Positions 2,826 to 63,062 of a stretch of DNA of 64,000 nt are shown here, piece by piece. Below the pieces are notes generated by a model that worked only from the letters and a program-made list of their open reading frames with translations, ran no database searches and was not told the origin of the DNA. This stretch comes from Spirochaetaceae bacterium (GTDB lineage: Bacteria > Spirochaetota > Spirochaetia > DSM-27196 > PXBQ01). Numbering within the stretch: position 1 is the first letter of the stretch; the number at the start of each line of letters is the position of its first letter. The position numbers and the translations under genes were made by a program. The stretch lies in NCBI GenBank assembly GCA_007695285.1, contig REEC01000125.1:62001-126000 (forward strand). The letters are read 5' to 3'.

Positions 2826-4349
2826 ATGAACACACTTTGTATTGTCAATGGTACCGAAGTATCGGAGTACGCTCAACTCGGCGCGTTCGACGGCGAATCG
2901 GCGTGCGATCGGGTTCGGCGGTACGTCGACGCGCTTTCGGCGCCGGCGCACGTCATCTGCAAACCCGCTGCACGAGCTCTGTATCCGGACGCCTGGAGCT
3001 CGGACGTTCGTGAGTCGTGGAACATCGCCGGTCTGTTCGATGCGTTACGGCAAGCGGGCTCCGGATACGACGCGATCTTTGTCGTGCCCGGCGATGCCCC
3101 GTTTCTCGACCCCGAGTTGTGCCGCACGATGATCGAAAAACACGAGAAGTACTTTGTCGAGTACTCATTTGCGGACGGGTTTCCCGCGGCGGTTTCTCCC
3201 GAAATCCTCAGTACGCGCATCCTCGCACGATTGGCGGATCTGGCGACCGGCGATACAAGAGCGGTCGGACGCGATGCGATTTTTTCGGTCGTGCAGAAGG
3301 ATATTAATGCGTTCGACGTAGAAACGGAGATTTCCGCGGTCGATCTGCGCATGCTTCGGATCACTCTCGCGTGCAACACGCGAAACAACTTCGTCGTGTG
3401 TAAAAACCTGCACGATCATGGCATGCTTTCATCGACCGCATCGATAATCGAAACGATCGAAAAAAACGGCGCGGCATTACGCGGCGTGCCGACGTACGCG
3501 GCGATTCAGATCGCCGACGGTTTCATCCCGACGGTGTACGATCCGTTTGCGAACGACGGTCGCGACGCGGAAACGAGCACGACGATGCCCGTTGATCGCG
3601 TTGAGCGGGTGATCGACGAAGTATTGACGATGTCGCCCGAGTGCGTGATCGCGATGTCGTTATACGGTGACGTCGTGCGGTATACCGCGATTGAGGAGTT
3701 GATTGCGGTGTGCGCGGCCCGCCCGAATGCATCGTTTATCTTCGAGACCGCCGGTGTCGGTTGGGAGAACCCGGATCGCGTTGCGAAGGCGTCGGCTGAG
3801 AATATCTCATGGATCGTTGCGCTCGACGCGGATGATCCCGAGCTTTACAGAGCGATTCGTGGCGACGGCTACGACGACGCGATCGGATTTGCCGAGACTT
3901 TCATGGACATCGCCCCCGAACACACGTGGGTTCAGGCGACTCGCATGAAACTCAACGAAGAGCATCTCGACGGATTCTTTCGCCGGTGGAGCGAACGGTA
4001 TCGCAAACGCGTCGGACTCGATCCGTCGGCGATCGGGACGCCTTCGCACGTGATCATTCAAAAGCACGATCATTACTGCGGCAGATTGCCCGACCGGCGG
4101 GTGTGCGACCTGTCTCCGGTAAAACGGTATCCGTGTTGGCACGTAAAACGAGACGTGAACATTCTTCTCGACGGGACTGTTGTTTTGTGTCGTGAGGATC
4201 TCGACCGTGAACACGTTCTCGGCAACATTTTCCGAGATGGAATCGAAGCGGCGTGGTCCGGCGGCGCGACGTATCACGAGATGCACGTACGCGGTGCGTA
4301 CCCGCGACTATGCGAGAAGTGCGATGAGTACTACACCTTCAATTTTTGA
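2826..4349 (+). CDS. spirochaete SPASM-domain protein with nucleotidyltransferase-like N-terminus and degenerate radical-SAM barrel
   Basis: N-terminal FVVPGDAPFLDPELC (NTP-transferase-like); C-terminal CWHVKRDVNILLDGTVVLCREDLDREHVLGN...CEKCDEY (SPASM-like Cys/Gly spacing); no CxxxCxxC in the expected place. Confidence 0.75.
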   Translation: MNTLCIVNGTEVSEYAQLGAFDGESACDRVRRYVDALSAPAHVICKPAARALYPDAWSSDVRESWNIAGLFDALRQAGSGYDAIFVVPGDAPFLDPELCRTMIEKHEKYFVEYSFADGFPAAVSPEILSTRILARLADLATGDTRAVGRDAIFSVVQKDINAFDVETEISAVDLRMLRITLACNTRNNFVVCKNLHDHGMLSSTASIIETIEKNGAALRGVPTYAAIQIADGFIPTVYDPFANDGRDAETSTTMPVDRVERVIDEVLTMSPECVIAMSLYGDVVRYTAIEELIAVCAARPNASFIFETAGVGWENPDRVAKASAENISWIVALDADDPELYRAIRGDGYDDAIGFAETFMDIAPEHTWVQATRMKLNEEHLDGFFRRWSERYRKRVGLDPSAIGTPSHVIIQKHDHYCGRLPDRRVCDLSPVKRYPCWHVKRDVNILLDGTVVLCREDLDREHVLGNIFRDGIEAAWSGGATYHEMHVRGAYPRLCEKCDEYYTFNF

Positions 4350-5283
4350 GTGCGACGACGGAACGTACACGGTAGTCGGAGGGCGACACCACGACCGGCC
4401 ACGCGCGCGCACTCATGGTTTCACGATCGTACTGTTGAATCGAGGTGGGAGATTCAATAGAAGCGCGACACTCGGCGAACTCGAGCGACTCGGTGCGACC
4501 GAAGTTCTGTGTGTCGAGCCGGGTGAATCGGCGTACGAGGTCGAATCGCTCTCGCGTCGAATGCCGCGCGTACGATTCGTGCTTCTTCACAAAAAGCTAA
4601 CGACCGGTGAAACGATCAACCTCACGATCAAGGAGTCCGGCTCGAACTCGGTCATGGTGATATGGAACGACGTAACGCTCGTGCCGACTTCGGCGAAACC
4701 GATCGAAAAAGCCGCCTCGCGGGGCGTTCTCTGTGTCGTGCCTTTTGCACGAAACGAAAAATCCGAGATTATCCCAACCGTGTACGCCCCGGCGTTCTTT
4801 AAGAACTTCCTTCGGCTCGTCGCGGTTGCCCCGCGCGATGACGGGGCGCCGAGTCTCTTTCCGTACGACTACGTTGGGTTGTACAACAAGGAAAAATTCA
4901 TCGGAATCGGCGGTTATGACCCGTTGATAACCAACTCGTATTGGCAGAAGGTCGATTTTGGGTTCCGCGCGTTTATGTGGGGTGAATCGATTGTGTGCGA
5001 TCCACATCTTCGCGTCGCGTATTCCGGGCTCCCGTCGCCTGAAGATACGACGAACGATGCGAGTTACGCCCGGTTTCACGCGAAGAGTCTTTCGGTACGG
5101 TTCTCAGGTGATCGCGCGATTCTGCCGGCTTCGCGCGTCGTACGGTTCGTGTTTCGGTCGGGTCACGGATTGCTCCGCGGGTACCGAGTGTTTGCGGACA
5201 TTCGCGCCTGGGTCGAGGCAAACCGGTATCGGTTTCGCCAGGATGCTCGCAGAGTTACCGAGTTATGGGAGGTCGAGCAGTGA
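4324..5283 (+). CDS. glycosyltransferase-like (GT-A type) protein
   Basis: ATG at 4324 overlaps the upstream stop; GFTIVLLNRGG..., SVMVIWNDVTLVPTSAKPIEKA, FIGIGGYDPLITNSYWQKVDFGFRAFMWG resembles a GT2-like layout. Confidence 0.55.
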   Translation: MSTTPSIFECDDGTYTVVGGRHHDRPRARTHGFTIVLLNRGGRFNRSATLGELERLGATEVLCVEPGESAYEVESLSRRMPRVRFVLLHKKLTTGETINLTIKESGSNSVMVIWNDVTLVPTSAKPIEKAASRGVLCVVPFARNEKSEIIPTVYAPAFFKNFLRLVAVAPRDDGAPSLFPYDYVGLYNKEKFIGIGGYDPLITNSYWQKVDFGFRAFMWGESIVCDPHLRVAYSGLPSPEDTTNDASYARFHAKSLSVRFSGDRAILPASRVVRFVFRSGHGLLRGYRVFADIRAWVEANRYRFRQDARRVTELWEVEQ

Positions 5284-5969
5284 TTTGTGTTTTCTTGCAG
5301 GCGAGGCTCGACTCGACTCGATTGCCAAGAAAAGCGTTGCTCGAGCTCGCGGGGCGTACGGTGCTCGAACACGCGATGGAGGCGATGCGGCTCGTACCCG
5401 CGCAAAGGTATGTGCTCCTAACCGACGCGGCCGGCGCGGAGTGTTTTAGAGGCATCGCACGGACGTGCGGCTTTGACCTCTTCGCCGGCTCCCCCGACGA
5501 CGTTCTCGACCGGTACTGCTCGGCAATCCACGCGTACGAGCCGACAACGGTTATCCGCGCGACGGGCGACAACCCTCTCGTGAGTCCTGAACTCGCGAGG
5601 AAGGCCGTCGTGTACCACCGCGCGACAGGGGCGGACTACACCGGACTTCTTGGTATGCCGATCGGGTTGGGGGTGGAGGTTTTGCGTGCCTCGGCGTTGA
5701 TCGCCGCCGGTGTGGAGGCGCAGGACGCGTACGAGAGAGAACACGTCTCACCCTTCCTGTACCGGAGACCCGAACGGTTCCGGATCGTTCGGCCGCGCGT
5801 CGAGCGTCTCTACGACTGCGAGTATGAGAGCGTGACGCTTGACACGGCGGACGACTACGCGCGCCTTGTTCGCATATTCGAGAATCTGTACGACGGGAAA
5901 CCGATCGATACACCGGCGGTCGTAGAGTGGCTCCGTCGGCACGGCTCGGACGTAGCGGGATACGCGTGA
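5280..5969 (+). CDS. cytidylyltransferase-like protein, SpsF/NeuA family
   Basis: VICVFLQARLDSTRLPRKALLELAGRTVLEHAMEAM and VIRATGDNPLVSPELARKAV are typical of SpsF; GTG start overlaps the upstream TGA. Confidence 0.85.
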   Translation: MICVFLQARLDSTRLPRKALLELAGRTVLEHAMEAMRLVPAQRYVLLTDAAGAECFRGIARTCGFDLFAGSPDDVLDRYCSAIHAYEPTTVIRATGDNPLVSPELARKAVVYHRATGADYTGLLGMPIGLGVEVLRASALIAAGVEAQDAYEREHVSPFLYRRPERFRIVRPRVERLYDCEYESVTLDTADDYARLVRIFENLYDGKPIDTPAVVEWLRRHGSDVAGYA

Positions 5970-7708
5970 GCGCGCGTCGGTTTCTGCTCGTACCCGAACT
6001 AGGTAGATCGCGTGGCCTCGGGCACATCGTGCGTTCCTTCGCGCTTGCATCCGAACTCGACGGCGAAGTTGCGATCGTTCTTCCCGAACGGCCCGACACC
6101 AGTAAAAGGACGCGTGCTGAGCTTCTAAATACACTGCTCGTCGACCCAATCGCGTGTGAGATCGTGGAGGCGATCGAAGCGGGGTACGATTTCATTGTTT
6201 TCGACCAGATGCGCCCGTCTTTATCGGATCTCCGGAAGTGCGAGGATGCGGTCACCGTCGGGATCGACGCGGGAGGCGAGGCACGACGGTTTCTATCCTA
6301 CCTCATCGATACGCTTCCAAATCTCGAGCGGACACCCGCGAACACCGCGTCGACCCGTTTTCTCACGCCCGCGAAAACAAAACGGTCCGGGTTCCCCGAC
6401 TTCCTGTCCTCCGTTCTCGTAAGTTTTGGCGGGTCGGACCCAGCCGGTCTCACCGTGCCGACCGTCAAGAGCATCGTCGAGTCATCCGTCGGGCGTTCGG
6501 CATCGGTTACAGCGGTTTGGGGGCCGATTGCCCCGCGCGAGTCGCTGCCCGTGGGTGTTCAGGTTCTCGATGCACCAAAAGATCTCCGCGAACAGCTGCA
6601 CATGTTCGACCTTGTCGTAACGTCTTTCGGATTAACGGCGTACGAGGCATTATCCGCGAACGTGCCGGTCGCGCTCGTGAACCCGACTGCGTATCATGAC
6701 GCGCTTTCGCGCGAGGCGGGATTTCCGACCTTTGGAGTAGGTCGCCGCGCGGCGCGACGGGTCGCGGGTGCGGAGAAAAAGTTCGGTGAGATTGTCACCG
6801 CGTCGCGGTCGCTCGCGCCGCCGAAACCGATCGCGTTGAGCGATGCGCTGAACGCTCTCGCGCCGGAAGGGGTTGGCGGTACCTCGACGTATCCGGTAAT
6901 CGCAAGATTCCGCGATAGGACGTATCGACGCGCGCCGTCGGGGTTGATCGTGATGCAGAGGTACTCACCGTCGGGGATTCAGTACGCCGAGTCGTATTTC
7001 TCGGACGAGTACAAAAAACAGTACGGGCGGACGTACCTCGACGACTTCGAGAACATCGCGGCGGTTGCGCACGAGAGAATCGATACGATCGAACAAGTCG
7101 CTCCCACCGGCTCCTCGACGACATTGCTCGACATAGGCTGCGCGTACGGCCCGTTCTTGGCTTCCGCGCACGAACGCGGCTATCGCGTTTTTGGAATCGA
7201 CGTCGCGCACGAACCGGTAGAGTATGTGAAGAACACGCTCGGTCTGCGCGCGCTTTCGTGCGACGTGCGTGCGTTTGATCCGGTCGTCTTTGGGATCTCT
7301 GCGTTCGACCGCGTAACGATGTGGTACGTCATCGAGCATTTCGCCGAGATAGACGAGATTCTTCGTAGGGTCGCACGACTCGTCGCCCCCGGCGGTGTTT
7401 TCGCGTTTTCGACGCCGAGTGCGACGGGAGTCTCCGGTCGGCGCGACCTCGAACGATTTCTGGAGATTAGCCCCGCGGATCACTTCACGGTCTGGAGTCC
7501 GCGCAGCGCGGCGCGCGTCCTTCGAGAGTACGGATTTGCAGTAAAAAAAATCCGAGTGACCGGTCACCATCCCGAACGTTTCGCCGTGAGTTCAACCCGG
7601 TTGGGTGCGAGAAAACCGGTTCAGTATTTGCTTGGTATCGTCAGTCGCGTGTTTGGCCGCGGCGATACGTTCGAAGTATACGCAGTCAGAACGAAGGAAA
7701 ACCCATGA
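5966..7708 (+). CDS. SpsG/PseG-like glycosyltransferase-fold domain fused to a class I SAM methyltransferase
   Basis: N-terminus LVPELGRSRGLGHIVRSFALASEL, VSFGGSDPAGLT, VVTSFGLTAYEALSANVPVALVNP; C-terminus LLDIGCAYGPFLASAHERGYRVFGIDVA and FDRVTMWYVIEHFAE. Confidence 0.8.
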   Translation: MSARRFLLVPELGRSRGLGHIVRSFALASELDGEVAIVLPERPDTSKRTRAELLNTLLVDPIACEIVEAIEAGYDFIVFDQMRPSLSDLRKCEDAVTVGIDAGGEARRFLSYLIDTLPNLERTPANTASTRFLTPAKTKRSGFPDFLSSVLVSFGGSDPAGLTVPTVKSIVESSVGRSASVTAVWGPIAPRESLPVGVQVLDAPKDLREQLHMFDLVVTSFGLTAYEALSANVPVALVNPTAYHDALSREAGFPTFGVGRRAARRVAGAEKKFGEIVTASRSLAPPKPIALSDALNALAPEGVGGTSTYPVIARFRDRTYRRAPSGLIVMQRYSPSGIQYAESYFSDEYKKQYGRTYLDDFENIAAVAHERIDTIEQVAPTGSSTTLLDIGCAYGPFLASAHERGYRVFGIDVAHEPVEYVKNTLGLRALSCDVRAFDPVVFGISAFDRVTMWYVIEHFAEIDEILRRVARLVAPGGVFAFSTPSATGVSGRRDLERFLEISPADHFTVWSPRSAARVLREYGFAVKKIRVTGHHPERFAVSSTRLGARKPVQYLLGIVSRVFGRGDTFEVYAVRTKENP

Positions 7709-9312
7709 CGACACTCATGATCCTTGGTGGCGGACCGATGCAGCTTCCCGCGATCGAGACGGCGCGCCGCAACGGCTGGCGTACCGTGTGCGTCGATGGA
7801 AATCCGAACGCGCCGGGGCAGCGTGCCGCAGACCGTTTCATCCATATCGATCTGAAAGACGCCGCCGCAATTCTCAACGCGGCACGAGATTTACGGAAAG
7901 CCGAGGGGCTTGACGGAGTGTTTACGGCCGCGACCGACTTTTCGAGTTCGGTCGCGTACGTCGCCGAGAATCTGGGGTTACCGGGTATTCCTTACGAGAC
8001 GGCGCTTGACGCCTCGGACAAGGCGCGAATGCGCGCGCGTTTTCACGAAAAAAAAGTACCTGCACCGCGGTTCTTTGCGCTGCACGAGGACGCACTCGAA
8101 CTCGCGTCGGACAAAATCCGCGCAAGCAGTGTCAGGTTTCCGCTCGTCGTGAAGCCCGCCGACAATATGGGCGCGCGAGGCGTGAAACGAATCGACTTCG
8201 AGCCCGACGGCGCAGACTCTTCCGGCCCGCTGATCGAGGCGTGCCGAACCTCGGTCGCGTTCTCGCGTTCGCGAACGGTCGTTATCGAAGAGTTCATCGA
8301 AGGACGAGAGTACAGTATCGATGCGATTCTAGAAAAAGGCCGGCTTACCGTGTGCGGGATCGCCGACCGACACATACGGTTCGATCCTTTTTTCATCGAG
8401 GTCGGGCACACGTTGCCGGCCGATCTCGACTCGAGCGAACGCGATGAACTCGTTTCGGTGTTTTCCGCCGGTGTCGCCGCGCTAGGGATTACAAACGGCG
8501 CCGCCAAAGGTGACGTTTTTTTGGGACCCAACGGCGCGGTTGTCGGTGAGATTGCCGCGCGTCTCTCGGGTGGTTATATGTCGGGCTGGACGTATCCGTT
8601 TGCGAGCGGTGTCAACGTCACCGAGCACGCGATGCGGATCGCTCTGGGCTTGCCGGCCGGAGAGGTTCGCGAGAGTAGAGCGTGGTGTTCGGCCGAACGC
8701 GCCGTAATTTCGATCCCCGGAACCGTGAAGGACGTCGACGGGTGGGACGAAGCGCGCGACGTCCCTCACGTGCACGCCGTTTTTGCCCGATCGGAGGTCG
8801 ACGACGTAGTGGCTTTTCCGAGAAACAACGTCGAAAAATGCGGCAATGTGATATCGGCCGCGGAAAACCGTAGTGAAACGATCGACGCGGCCGAGTCCGG
8901 CGTATCGCGAGTGGTGTATCGACTGTGCCCGGGCGATGAGCGGACCGATGCGTTCCTGCTCGGAGCCGATGAATTCCTGAATTTTTTCGCGTACGAATCG
9001 CTGTTACCCGAAACAGCGACCGCGATCACATCGCTCGACTCAATTGTGGCAAACCGTATCCGTGCTATCGGTTTTCCTGATGCGCTGCGCACCGACCCCG
9101 CGCGCGACTGGGCGTTTCGTACGTTCTCGAGTGTCGCCGACCGGGCGCAAGAGCTAACGGGCGTCACGTTTTCGCGGAACGAAAAAACCGGGCGTGAATT
9201 CTGGCTCGCGGTGGTGAAGGGCGGTCTACAGGCGGCGTTGTATTTGATCGATACTGTAAACGTGGGGAAGGGCCGAGAGCTTTTGCGAGGTTTGGGTAGT
9301 ATCACATGGTAA
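7705..9312 (+). CDS. ATP-grasp ligase-like protein with extra C-terminal domain
   Basis: FPLVVKPADNMGARGVKRI, VVIEEFIEGREYSIDAIL, GEIAARLSGGYMSGWTYP (CarB/PurK-like ATP-grasp); ATGA overlap with upstream gene. Confidence 0.85.
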   Translation: MTTLMILGGGPMQLPAIETARRNGWRTVCVDGNPNAPGQRAADRFIHIDLKDAAAILNAARDLRKAEGLDGVFTAATDFSSSVAYVAENLGLPGIPYETALDASDKARMRARFHEKKVPAPRFFALHEDALELASDKIRASSVRFPLVVKPADNMGARGVKRIDFEPDGADSSGPLIEACRTSVAFSRSRTVVIEEFIEGREYSIDAILEKGRLTVCGIADRHIRFDPFFIEVGHTLPADLDSSERDELVSVFSAGVAALGITNGAAKGDVFLGPNGAVVGEIAARLSGGYMSGWTYPFASGVNVTEHAMRIALGLPAGEVRESRAWCSAERAVISIPGTVKDVDGWDEARDVPHVHAVFARSEVDDVVAFPRNNVEKCGNVISAAENRSETIDAAESGVSRVVYRLCPGDERTDAFLLGADEFLNFFAYESLLPETATAITSLDSIVANRIRAIGFPDALRTDPARDWAFRTFSSVADRAQELTGVTFSRNEKTGREFWLAVVKGGLQAALYLIDTVNVGKGRELLRGLGSITW

Positions 9313-10334
9313 GACGAGCCTTTTTTGTCGTGCTTCTGCTTTGTATCTCGATGGTCGTGCTCGCCGCGGAAACCCGTGAACACACGATTCACGAAATCCT
9401 CGAGACCACCGGGGCGCGCCTTCAATGGGACGCCGATCGCGGAATCGGGGTGCTCCGCAACGCAAACACGTACGTCTCGTTCCGCCCCGGATCCCGTTGG
9501 GGCCTCGTCAACTACGCGAATCAGCGCGAACTCGGCGAGATTCGGCGTGTCGACGGGAACATAATCTTTTCCGCCGAAGCCGCCGAAACGGTGCTCTCGA
9601 TCCTCAAACCCGCCAGGCAAACGTCGACCGACAGATACATCAGTACGATTTTTATCGACGCCGGTCACGGAGGCCGGGATCCGGGAGCCGTGGGTATTCA
9701 TACGATTAACGGCGAACGATGGGAGATCAAGGAAAAAGACATAGTGCTCGACGTCTCGATGCGATTGCGCGATATGTTACGTCGTGGTTTTCCGGAACGT
9801 GATATCGTGATGTCACGAGAAGACGACACGTATCTGCGGCTTGAAGAACGGACCGAAGCGGCGAACTCTGTCGAGCTCGCCGAGAACGAAACCATAATTT
9901 TCCTCTCGATCCACGCAAATGCGACGTTCAACACTCGCGCCAAAGGTTTTGAGGTCTGGGTTTTGCCGCCCGAGGAACGGCGGGGCGGTCTCGTCGACTC
10001 GCGAACGACAGGAGTGAGCGATCCGGGAGTATTGTCTATACTGAATACAATCCGCGAAGAAGAGCTCACGATTGAAAGCGTATTACTCTCGCGGAGCCTG
10101 CTCACAGGACTCGAAGGCTCCGTCGGCGACGTCGCGCCGAATCGCGGTATGAAGACCGCTTCGTGGTCCGTCGTCCGCAACGCGCGCATGCCGTCGGTTC
10201 TCGTTGAGCTCGGGTTCGTTACCAACAAAGAGGAGGCTTTGAGGATGGCCGAACCCGATCACTTGCACAACCTCGCGCTCGGACTCTATAATGGCATCGT
10301 GGAGTTCATTCGGTATTTCGAGGCTCCACAATAG
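9306..10334 (+). CDS. N-acetylmuramoyl-L-alanine amidase (Amidase_3)
   Basis: IFIDAGHGGRDPGAVG, IFLSIHANA, SVLVELGFVTNKEEALRM. Confidence 0.92.
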   Translation: MVRRAFFVVLLLCISMVVLAAETREHTIHEILETTGARLQWDADRGIGVLRNANTYVSFRPGSRWGLVNYANQRELGEIRRVDGNIIFSAEAAETVLSILKPARQTSTDRYISTIFIDAGHGGRDPGAVGIHTINGERWEIKEKDIVLDVSMRLRDMLRRGFPERDIVMSREDDTYLRLEERTEAANSVELAENETIIFLSIHANATFNTRAKGFEVWVLPPEERRGGLVDSRTTGVSDPGVLSILNTIREEELTIESVLLSRSLLTGLEGSVGDVAPNRGMKTASWSVVRNARMPSVLVELGFVTNKEEALRMAEPDHLHNLALGLYNGIVEFIRYFEAPQ

Positions 10335-10351
10335 CTCGATTCCGGGGTGTT

Positions 10352-10852
10352 ATGTTTTCGCGCAAAATCGTTCGAGTGCTCAACAGTAAGCCGTGGATCG
10401 TCCCGATCGTGTTGTTCGGGCTCTCGCTTTGTATCAGCATCGTCTTCTCGATCGTTTTTTTTGACGGCCGGATTACCCGTACGTTTTTTTTCCCGGACTC
10501 GGTCACGCAGGAACTGCGGAGCGAACGGCGTCCCGTTCCGAGCGGCAAAGGCATCCAAGACGATATTGCTGAGTACGTCCGCGAGATTATCCTGGGACCG
10601 ACGATTCTTCAAAGCGGTCGAGTATTGCCGCGCGATACAACCGTCCGTATCGCGATCGCCCGCGAGGGCAAAGTATACCTCGATCTTTCTCACCACGCCG
10701 TGACGATCGAGTCGCCGCTCGGAATCGAGGAAACGATCGATATCGTCAGACATAATATTTTTTTTAACTTTCGGTCGATCAACTCGATCGTCGTCACGGT
10801 CGCGGGGCAAAAGCCTTTCGAGCCGCCGTACTTCCCGGCCTCACCTCTGTGA
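10352..10852 (+). CDS. GerMN-domain membrane-anchored protein
   Basis: N-terminal TM segment; REGKVYLDLSHHAVTIESPLGIEETIDIVRHNIFFNFRSINSIVVTVAGQ. Confidence 0.65.
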   Translation: MFSRKIVRVLNSKPWIVPIVLFGLSLCISIVFSIVFFDGRITRTFFFPDSVTQELRSERRPVPSGKGIQDDIAEYVREIILGPTILQSGRVLPRDTTVRIAIAREGKVYLDLSHHAVTIESPLGIEETIDIVRHNIFFNFRSINSIVVTVAGQKPFEPPYFPASPL

Positions 10853-10904
10853 GAGTTAAGACCGTCGACACGGAACCGGATGCGAAGCAAACATCCAAAA
10901 AACG

Positions 10905-10996: not shown

Positions 10997-11998
10997 ATGA
11001 AACGTTTTTTCCTTCTCGTCACGATAATGCTCGTGGCTCTGAGCTTTGGGCTCTCGGCCCAACAATCTGTTCTGATTGATTTCTCCGAGCTCGCAGCCGA
11101 CTGGCCCGCCGACGAACCGCGTGAGAACGAACGCACGCTTGTTGATTTCGGTAGCGTCGCGGGGGCCAGTTTCACTGCGGAACAACGCGCTCAGATGAAG
11201 ACATCGCTCGGGATCGAGAGTTGGGACATCGAGCTCGCGTCGTCGTCACGGTTTGTCCAGACCGTCGGCAACTCATACGTGCGGCAAGCGCGCGTCCGCG
11301 AGGGAGCCGCACAGTTTGAGAACGAAGCGGTCATGGGTATTCGGGTGAATTTCCCGACCGCGGCGTACAACTCGTGGGCGATGATCCGACCTCCGTTCGA
11401 GATTCCCGCCTATGCGGATATCGACGTTCTCGACGGTGACGACCTGATCGTTCCGCAACAGGAAGAGGGACGAGGGGCAAAATTCGACGGGTTCGGAGTC
11501 GTGAAGAACGTGGGCGTGCTTCGGGATCTTACCGTTAACGTGTACGGGTCCAACTTTCCGCACGGATTGAGTGTAATTCTGCAGGATGAGAATAACGTGG
11601 AACACGAGATCTTCCTCGGGAACCTTCGGTTCGACGGCTGGCGTGCACTTGAATGGAGGAATCCGAACTACATCGCGGACGTCCGCAACCGTGAACTCCG
11701 CACGTTCCCGCTGTATCCGGCGATGCAACCGATGGTCAAGCTTGTCGGCTTCCGAGTCTATCGGGACGCGGCGATGCAGGGCGGCGACTTTATAACGTAC
11801 ATCAAAGACGTGAACATCTCGTACGACCGCGCGCGGCTCGATATCGAACGCGACATCGACGACGAGGAAGTCTGGGGTATTCTTCAGGATCGCGAACGCG
11901 CACGCCGTGAAGCGGAACTGCGCCGTGTCGGGGATGTCCAGATTCTCCGGTTCCTCGAGGAGCAGCGGCTCGCGCCTCCGCGTGAGAACAACAACTAA
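10997..11998 (+). CDS. flaA: flagellar filament outer layer (sheath) protein FlaA
   Basis: ATG after AAAGGAG; signal peptide MKRFFLLVTIMLVALSFGLSAQ; spirochaete FlaA-like LRDLTVNVYGSNFPHGLSVILQDENNVEHEIFLGNLRFDGWRALEWRNPNYI. Confidence 0.88.
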   Translation: MKRFFLLVTIMLVALSFGLSAQQSVLIDFSELAADWPADEPRENERTLVDFGSVAGASFTAEQRAQMKTSLGIESWDIELASSSRFVQTVGNSYVRQARVREGAAQFENEAVMGIRVNFPTAAYNSWAMIRPPFEIPAYADIDVLDGDDLIVPQQEEGRGAKFDGFGVVKNVGVLRDLTVNVYGSNFPHGLSVILQDENNVEHEIFLGNLRFDGWRALEWRNPNYIADVRNRELRTFPLYPAMQPMVKLVGFRVYRDAAMQGGDFITYIKDVNISYDRARLDIERDIDDEEVWGILQDRERARREAELRRVGDVQILRFLEEQRLAPPRENNN

Positions 11999-61481: not shown

Positions 61482-63062
61482 ATGAGTTCCCGCGCGCCGA
61501 TCCGCGATACCGTCGTTTTTTTTTCAGGCCTCGCGGCCGTCGTCGGCGTGTCATTTTTCATCGTCATTTCATTGACAACCTCACAAGCGGATCGGGAGTT
61601 CGTCGTCGCGGTCACGGATGCACGAAACGCAATCGCGCGGGCAGAGCCCGCGGAAGCGGCTGCTCTTCTCGACCGGGGCGTACTCTACGCTCGGTCGCAG
61701 CGAGACTGGGGCGTTCTGATCCGGCTCGCGTACGCCGTTTTTGAGCTTTCACACGACGTTACCACCCTGTCGCGGATAGCGACACGGGCTTCCGATGCCT
61801 TTCCCGACGAACACCAATTCTTGAAGGTCGCCGCACACGCCCTCGTGCGCGCGGGTCTGTTCGACGATGCCGTGTCTTTGATCGATCGCCGGCTCAGTCC
61901 TTCAGACGCGCGTTCGCTCGCGGCGGAGGCGTACCTCGGTGCGGAGCGCTCTCTCGTCGGCGACGATATCGCCGTTCTCACGCGTCTGGGGACGAGCAAA
62001 GACGCAGACGAGTTCGCCCTCGCGGCATCCGTAACGAACCGGGACGAGTTCCGAGTAAACGAGGCGTTGCTTCGTGCGCGTGACGGCCGGATTGCGCTCG
62101 CGTACGGCGCCGTACACGGCGCCACGGTACCGGAGCGCCTGGTTGCGCTGCTCGCGTACGATGCGGGCGAGTTTGAGTCGTTTCACGCGGTCTTGCGCCG
62201 CGCGCCGCCGGAGCTCGCGTTTTCTTCGGAGATGATGCTTCTGCAGGGTGACGTACGCGTCATCCAAAAGCAACCGGACGAGGCGTTTCCTTTTTACGAC
62301 GAGGTCGCGACGGTAGATCCCGCGTACTCGGTCGTGCCTCACCTGAATCGGGCGGGTCTCCTGCAGCCCGACTCGCGCCAGGAACGATCTTTGCTCGAAG
62401 CATGGAGTCGTTTTCCAGGCGATCTCCGCGTTTTACACGCCGTGGCGGCATTCTACGCGCGCACCGACCGCGGTGCAGAAGCGCTTGCGGTGCTCAAGAG
62501 CCCGGAGACACGTGAGCTCGCACGCGACAGACTCGCCGCGCTCGAGTTCATCGCGACGTACTCGCGCGAGAACCCCGACCGGTACCTCTCGAGGCTTTGG
62601 ATCCTTCATAACGAACGGCCGTCGGACGCCGACGTTGCCGCGCTTCTCGCGTCGAGCCTCTACGCGTTCCGCGACTTCGAAGGGCTTCGTATGCTGATCG
62701 CAAGAGCGGAGGAAGGTTTATGGACCGCGCTATACCGCGGCGTGATCGCTTTCGAAAAGCGTGACTTTTCGCGCGCGGCGTCCGCGTTCGAGGCGGCCTC
62801 CGGACGATACTCCGCGTACGGGCTGTACAACGCCGCGAGACTCGCCGAGTCGCTCGGACGACGCGAGACGGCAACGCGCCTGTACGATTCGGTGATCGAA
62901 ACCGGCTCAAACATCCTCGTGTCGCGCGCGTACGCCGGGCGCTCTCGGATCGAGTACGCAAACGGAGACATCACAAACGCGCGTCGCGAAATCGAACGCG
63001 CGCTCGCGATCGACCCGGAGTTCCATGCCGCCGACGTATTTCGCAGATTTCTCGGCGATTGA
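61482..63062 (+). CDS. TPR-repeat membrane-anchored protein
   Basis: N-terminal TM TVVFFSGLAAVVGVSFFIVISLTT; repeated helical pairs. Confidence 0.75.
   Translation: MSSRAPIRDTVVFFSGLAAVVGVSFFIVISLTTSQADREFVVAVTDARNAIARAEPAEAAALLDRGVLYARSQRDWGVLIRLAYAVFELSHDVTTLSRIATRASDAFPDEHQFLKVAAHALVRAGLFDDAVSLIDRRLSPSDARSLAAEAYLGAERSLVGDDIAVLTRLGTSKDADEFALAASVTNRDEFRVNEALLRARDGRIALAYGAVHGATVPERLVALLAYDAGEFESFHAVLRRAPPELAFSSEMMLLQGDVRVIQKQPDEAFPFYDEVATVDPAYSVVPHLNRAGLLQPDSRQERSLLEAWSRFPGDLRVLHAVAAFYARTDRGAEALAVLKSPETRELARDRLAALEFIATYSRENPDRYLSRLWILHNERPSDADVAALLASSLYAFRDFEGLRMLIARAEEGLWTALYRGVIAFEKRDFSRAASAFEAASGRYSAYGLYNAARLAESLGRRETATRLYDSVIETGSNILVSRAYAGRSRIEYANGDITNARREIERALAIDPEFHAADVFRRFLGD

Follow-up and report, generated by a model that had tools for sequence, protein, structure and literature searches.

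What do five overlapping genes upstream of flaA in a spirochaete genome build, and onto which structure is the product loaded? The genes, here lettered A to E, lie on the plus strand of a 64,000-nucleotide stretch of contig REEC01000125.1 from a Spirochaetaceae bacterium (positions 62,001 to 126,000 of the contig; hereafter the window). An earlier note on this DNA had read them as one pathway for a sugar-like or peptide-like modification of the flagellar filament or the periplasmic cell wall. We consider it very likely that A, C, D and E contribute to a pathway, its genes scattered over the genome, that places a nonulosonic acid of the pseudaminic or legionaminic type, activated with cytidine monophosphate (CMP), N-acylated and O-methylated, on serines of the flagellin core. 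The basis for this reading consists of the domains of the encoded proteins, the synteny of the array, its co-occurrence with flagellin, the joint absence of the pathway genes from Borrelia-like genomes, and the substituted serine sites in the flagellins of the latter.

A conserved array that follows flagellin

The array, with the amidase gene (F) and the small gene (G) that follow it, is laid out as below; SAM stands for S-adenosylmethionine, UDP for uridine diphosphate, NTP for nucleoside triphosphate and GT-A for one of the glycosyltransferase folds.

2826..4349, plus strand: gene A, spiro-SPASM protein with an SpsF/NTP-transferase-like N-terminal domain, a degenerate radical-SAM barrel and a four-cysteine SPASM domain
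4324..5283, plus strand: gene B, protein of predicted GT-A fold (predicted model and Foldseek), DxD not conserved
5280..5969, plus strand: gene C, CMP-nonulosonate synthetase-like protein, SpsF type (PF02348 CTP_transf_3, 91 bits)
5966..7708, plus strand: gene D, PseG/SpsG-like UDP-sugar hydrolase domain (N-terminal) and SAM methyltransferase (C-terminal; Methyltransf_23, 74.4 bits)
7705..9312, plus strand: gene E, predicted ATP-grasp carboxylate-amine ligase, L-amino acid ligase type (ATP-grasp_4, LAL_C2, ATPgrasp_N)
9306..10334, plus strand: gene F, N-acetylmuramoyl-L-alanine amidase, overlapping E (PF01520, 137.7 bits)
10352..10852, plus strand: gene G, small conserved protein between the amidase and FlaA, no family over cut-off
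about 10997..11998, plus strand: flaA, flagellar filament outer layer protein (PF04620, 266.6 bits)

Gene B starts at an ATG at 4324, inside A, which ends at 4349. The GTG starts of C (5280) and D (5966) overlap the ends of B and C in the tetranucleotide GTGA (5280-5283 and 5966-5969), the ATG of E (7705) overlaps the end of D in ATGA (7705-7708), and the ATG of the amidase gene (9306) precedes the end of E at 9312. Recomputing every coordinate bore out the five-gene overlap described earlier, as well as that between E and the amidase gene.

The order A-B-C-D-E-amidase-G-FlaA is kept across the class. Among the named E loci, 51 have sufficient sequence upstream, and 45 of these have A, B, C and D there on the same strand; of 63 with sufficient sequence downstream, 62 have the amidase and FlaA, and gene G is kept in place in 61/63 loci. 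This conservation is far beyond chance. Other classes have A-C-D alone as a recurring core. In several Treponema-type genomes C and D are fused into one gene, as in a genome of 2,843,201 bp, whereas at locus L222 they are separate.

One set of 148 genomes of the class, 117 with flagellin and 31 without, was searched for flagellin, spiro-SPASM and Maf alike; 11 of the flagellate genomes are Borrelia-like, a label given in this analysis with the flaA-region gene order of locus L295 among its grounds. Spiro-SPASM matches exceeded the cut-off in 98 of the 106 flagellate non-Borrelia genomes, in none of the 31 lacking flagellin (0/31) and in no Borrelia-like genome (0/11). The corresponding counts for Maf were 106/106, 2/31 and 0/11. 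Across a phylum sample of 198 genomes, spiro-SPASM matches were found in 188 (170 over the cut-off) and NeuB in 189, and the same seven Borrelia-like genomes of this sample lacked both. Gene E, too, occurs phylum-wide and is missing from Borrelia-like genomes. From genome to genome, A, C, D and E go along with flagellin, Maf and NeuB, and for these four genes the earlier idea that a sugar-like modification is directed at the flagellum is thereby well supported. Failure of the genes to co-occur or stay syntenic in other spirochaetes had been named as the finding that would count against that idea; the comparison was made, and the sugar pathway survived it.

Gene B belongs with the amidase and FlaA

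Could all five genes nevertheless form one pathway, with B transferring the finished sugar? The tight overlaps and the order conserved across the class favour this view, as does the fold predicted for B. Domain-family searches with B gave no match over cut-off. Its predicted model (predicted local distance difference test score, pLDDT, 87.9) finds its best Foldseek matches in polypeptide N-acetylgalactosaminyltransferases (template modelling score, TM, 0.5-0.64), and the match to GalNAc-T2 (E 1e-11, TM 0.54) agrees with a GT-A fold. The metal-binding DxD of GT-A glycosyltransferases, however, is not conserved in B, position 116 being Asp in 13/26 and position 114 in 3/26 orthologues, and the Maf proteins already suit the transferase role. 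In most other classes, moreover, B was not found beside A-C-D.

B also persists in genomes that lack A, C, D and E. In the Borrelia-like genome G076, B, the amidase gene, G and FlaA are contiguous (L295:8604-12177), and the flagellin-negative genome G149 has the order B-amidase-G. Because B stays beside the amidase in both, it is not in the sugar pathway and groups instead with the amidase, G and FlaA. We therefore reject a single five-gene pathway, which we regard as quite improbable, and the earlier placement of B within the modification pathway has to be given up. The array might best be viewed as sugar genes interleaved with a B-amidase-G-FlaA block.

Predicted enzymes and their scattered partners

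Gene A scores 440 bits over its full length against the spiro-SPASM model TIGR04321 (curated cut-off 250), and a domain search places the SPASM domain at residues 437-500. In its AlphaFold2 model (pLDDT 94.3), one part matches the Leptospira cytidylyltransferase 6oew in Foldseek, and the remainder matches the radical-SAM enzymes SuiB, BtrN and anSME, with SkfB also similar. Two sites in A bear on its function.

3522..3542, plus strand: radical-SAM motif site, reading F-I-P-T-(gap)-V-Y-D where some orthologues have CxxxCxxC
4134..4322, plus strand: SPASM cysteines C437, C455, C496 and C499, from the alignment

Neither an alignment of 41 orthologues nor a regular-expression scan of 61 revealed the CxxxCxxC of radical-SAM enzymes in A of the window, and all Treponema-type orthologues examined are without it; a minority of A orthologues carry it at the aligned site. 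Its presence and absence require eight changes on the tree, at least six of them forced by supported branches. The four SPASM cysteines are invariant in all 44 orthologues aligned (44/44). Because the CxxxCxxC of some orthologues is gone, A in this organism probably does not work as a radical-SAM enzyme; we propose that it is an accessory protein that combines an SpsF-like domain with one predicted SPASM iron-sulfur site and has lost its radical-SAM motif here. The tie of TIGR04321 to nonulosonic acid and Maf is a proposal of this analysis, the family name giving no function.

If A were instead an active radical-SAM/SPASM enzyme working on a peptide or protein, the cluster might make a modification like those of ribosomally synthesised and post-translationally modified peptides. 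The SPASM domain, the fold similarity to SuiB and SkfB and the retention of CxxxCxxC in some orthologues are in its favour, but in the window, as in the Treponema-type genomes, the operon persists without the motif, which changed repeatedly on the tree, and the fold matches of A also include the sugar enzymes BtrN, BlsE and DesII. We find this explanation highly improbable, although no search for a precursor peptide was made. Of the two kinds of modification entertained in the earlier note, the sugar-like one is well supported for A, C, D and E, and the peptide-like one is unlikely given the lost motif.

Gene C is the single CTP_transf_3 match in the genome. Its motifs QARxxSxRLPxK, DNP, EHV and D..D are conserved in 35 orthologues, and it matches PDB entry 6oew with an E-value of 8e-19. 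The family score of 91 bits and these motifs make C the predicted CMP-sugar synthetase that such a pathway would need. We also considered synthesis of 3-deoxy-D-manno-octulosonic acid, as C weakly matches KdsB models; it was judged less likely, because the sole cytidylyltransferase accompanies one NeuB and four Maf, although no search for that pathway was made.

In the PseG-like half of D, the motif GxGHxxR is conserved in 31/32 orthologues. Gene E exceeds the cut-offs of ATP-grasp_4 (53.4 bits), LAL_C2 (50.6 bits) and ATPgrasp_N, and matches the L-amino acid ligase of PDB entry 3vot with an E-value of 8e-38. The E proteins of other classes carry a fused FMN_dh, a domain of alpha-hydroxyacid dehydrogenases dependent on flavin mononucleotide (FMN). 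A free-standing FMN_dh-like open reading frame (L032:15841-16719), 34% identical to that fused domain, stands two genes after the fused C-D in a treponeme genome of 1,139,633 bp. The fusion and the free-standing relative hint at a 2-hydroxy or 2-keto acid. As for the C-terminus of E itself, hhalign gave a probability of 12% to its being a decayed FMN_dh.

Where are the remaining enzymes? The earlier statement that no NeuB/PseI-type synthase or aminotransferase gene lies nearby holds for this locus, yet the genome encodes both elsewhere. There is one full-length NeuB-type gene (L160:9758-10858; NeuB 208.8 bits, plus SAF), a dehydratase-aminotransferase pair (L284:8241-9713 and 9700-10872) and four Maf-type transferases (PF01973 matches over cut-off). 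Each of 14 class genomes examined, the window's own and the 1,139,633-bp one among them, has one full-length NeuB and two to four Maf copies. The 1,139,633-bp genome, which by its size would be T. pallidum Nichols, encodes one NeuB, one strong dehydratase, one strong aminotransferase and four Maf together with A-B-CD and E; the 2,843,201-bp genome, presumably T. denticola ATCC 35405, has A, B, the fused C-D, E, NeuB and Maf. Among 15 genomes tested, dehydratase and aminotransferase matches are strong in every pathway-bearing one, and two Borrelia-like and two related flagellin-negative genomes give weak generic matches only. The pair is not pathway-specific, because G204, which is without flagellin, also has strong matches to both.

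Two further genes adjoin this pair. A molybdopterin hydroxylase (MoCoBD, 2Fe-2S) directly follows it in the window's genome (L284:10671-13450) and in the 1,139,633-bp genome (L285:9051-12589), where a flavin adenine dinucleotide (FAD) subunit is also seen, and other genomes also have matches close to these genes. On its upstream side, the dehydratase gene directly follows L284:7654-8241, which encodes a NusG-family protein, possibly a specialised antiterminator.

How might these enzymes act together? The dehydratase (Polysacc_synt_2) and the aminotransferase (DegT) would convert UDP-N-acetylglucosamine to a UDP-4-amino-dideoxy sugar. E, as a carboxylate-amine ligase, would then join a polyhydroxy acid to the free amine, replacing the acetyltransferase PseH. 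Once the methyltransferase half of D had O-methylated this acid, the PseG-like half would remove UDP, the NeuB-type synthase would add phosphoenolpyruvate, C would form the CMP sugar, and the Maf transferases would attach it to flagellin ahead of export. We infer here the sequence of the reactions, their acyl and methyl substrates and the use of E in place of PseH.

The flagellin core as probable target

The motifs VEVSQL and DRIAS of T. denticola FlaB hold two glycosylated serines, both of which B. burgdorferi lacks (PMC7431986). We aligned 18 non-Borrelia and 8 Borrelia-like flagellins, all from genomes other than the window's own. Serine occupies the first site in 18/18 and the second in 15/18 of the non-Borrelia rows; the Borrelia-like flagellins all (8/8) have Glu and Asp at the two sites. 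In G096 (family f7; L304, L305), which has two Maf only and no amidase in the array, the second flagellin site is Asn, Asp or Phe.

The same nonulosonic acid might be destined mainly for an outer sheath glycan, a glycolipid or peptidoglycan, its tie to flagella being a by-product of lifestyle. The operon also contains a cell-wall amidase, nonulosonic acids can decorate other surfaces, and the strong matches in G204 lean the same way. Yet Maf, the nonulosonic synthase and spiro-SPASM are jointly absent from Borrelia-like genomes that are flagellate, genomes without flagellin have no spiro-SPASM over the cut-off and hardly any Maf, the Borrelia-like lineage also has other residues at the flagellin serine sites, and the amidase remains with B once the sugar genes are gone. 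We consider another main target unlikely. The flagellin core, FlaB, is the more likely one, so that of the targets first proposed the filament stands, with FlaA and the periplasmic cell wall less likely than the core.

In T. denticola, which belongs to the same class of spirochaetes, the flagellin O-glycan on FlaB has a mass of 450.2 Da and is required for filament assembly and motility (PMC9481697, which like PMC7431986 cites Kurniyati et al. 2017, doi 10.1111/mmi.13544). An amide and a methyl ether would be the expected products of an ATP-grasp ligase and a methyltransferase. The glycan is reportedly a mono-acetylated nonulosonic acid with a 2-methoxy-4,5,6-trihydroxyhexanoyl group at N7. 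These two parts would sum to the reported mass (274.1 + 176.1 = 450.2), and E and the methyltransferase of D fit its acyl-methoxy group.

Several points weigh against a flagellin nonulosonic-acid pathway of this kind. C falls below the curated cut-offs of the PseF and KdsB models; D scores 32.7 bits against the PseG model TIGR03590, below the equivalog cut-off of 153.55; and the NeuB-type protein scores 205.9 and 237.3 bits against the PseI and NeuB equivalogs, below their 340.25 and 399.65. Eight of the 106 flagellate non-Borrelia genomes gave no full-length spiro-SPASM match (two matches run into a contig end), and all genome counts are of related genomes and not of independent events.

Known systems offer partial parallels. 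In Shewanella oneidensis, deletion of sfmD (methyltransferase) or sfmE (ATP-grasp_4), like that of other sfm genes, changes the mass of flagellin, which is modified there with a mono-N-acetyl pseudaminic acid-like nonulosonic acid whose substituent is able to carry methyl groups (PMC3765264). Likened by domain type, sfmABCDE is a genetic precedent for a SAM methyltransferase and an ATP-grasp_4 protein in flagellin modification. It differs in having thiamine pyrophosphate (TPP) and reductase genes, a PseI-like SfmA and no SPASM protein, whereas spirochaetes have the methyltransferase and the PseG-like domain in one protein. The pseudaminic and legionaminic acid pathways of Campylobacter and Helicobacter share the dehydratase, aminotransferase, PseG-type hydrolase, NeuB-type synthase, CMP synthetase and Maf; in the spirochaete set, by contrast, the genes are scattered, a ligase is proposed instead of, or besides, the acetyltransferase, and the scores lie below the PseG, PseI and PseF cut-offs. 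SpsC, SpsE, SpsF and SpsG of Bacillus subtilis are a precedent for a legionaminic acid pathway, the likeness being in the SpsF and SpsG enzyme types and the UDP-linked precursors (PMC7439481). Its target differs, being the spore crust and not flagellin. We know of no SPASM, ATP-grasp or methyltransferase partner of the B. subtilis sps genes.

What is new here is the spirochaete variant with its gene set, the general nonulosonic-acid pathway of flagellin being known already. Much more tentatively, we propose for nearly all flagellate spirochaetes that the amine of the flagellin nonulosonic acid may be acylated by an ATP-grasp ligase and not by PseH, that an FMN-dependent alpha-hydroxyacid dehydrogenase may make or tune the acid, that a SPASM protein whose radical-SAM motif was repeatedly lost may partner the CMP synthetase, and that Borrelia may have dropped the pathway and carries acidic residues at the sugar sites.

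The spirochaete flagellin glycan would thereby gain a concrete candidate gene set, including the set in the 1,139,633-bp treponeme genome, whose SPASM protein is listed as hypothetical. A SPASM protein of T. pallidum appears in a published list as TPASS_0285. With gene B separated from the pathway, the proposal makes testable predictions as to which gene changes which mass, and Borrelia, as a natural deletion, may serve as a control.

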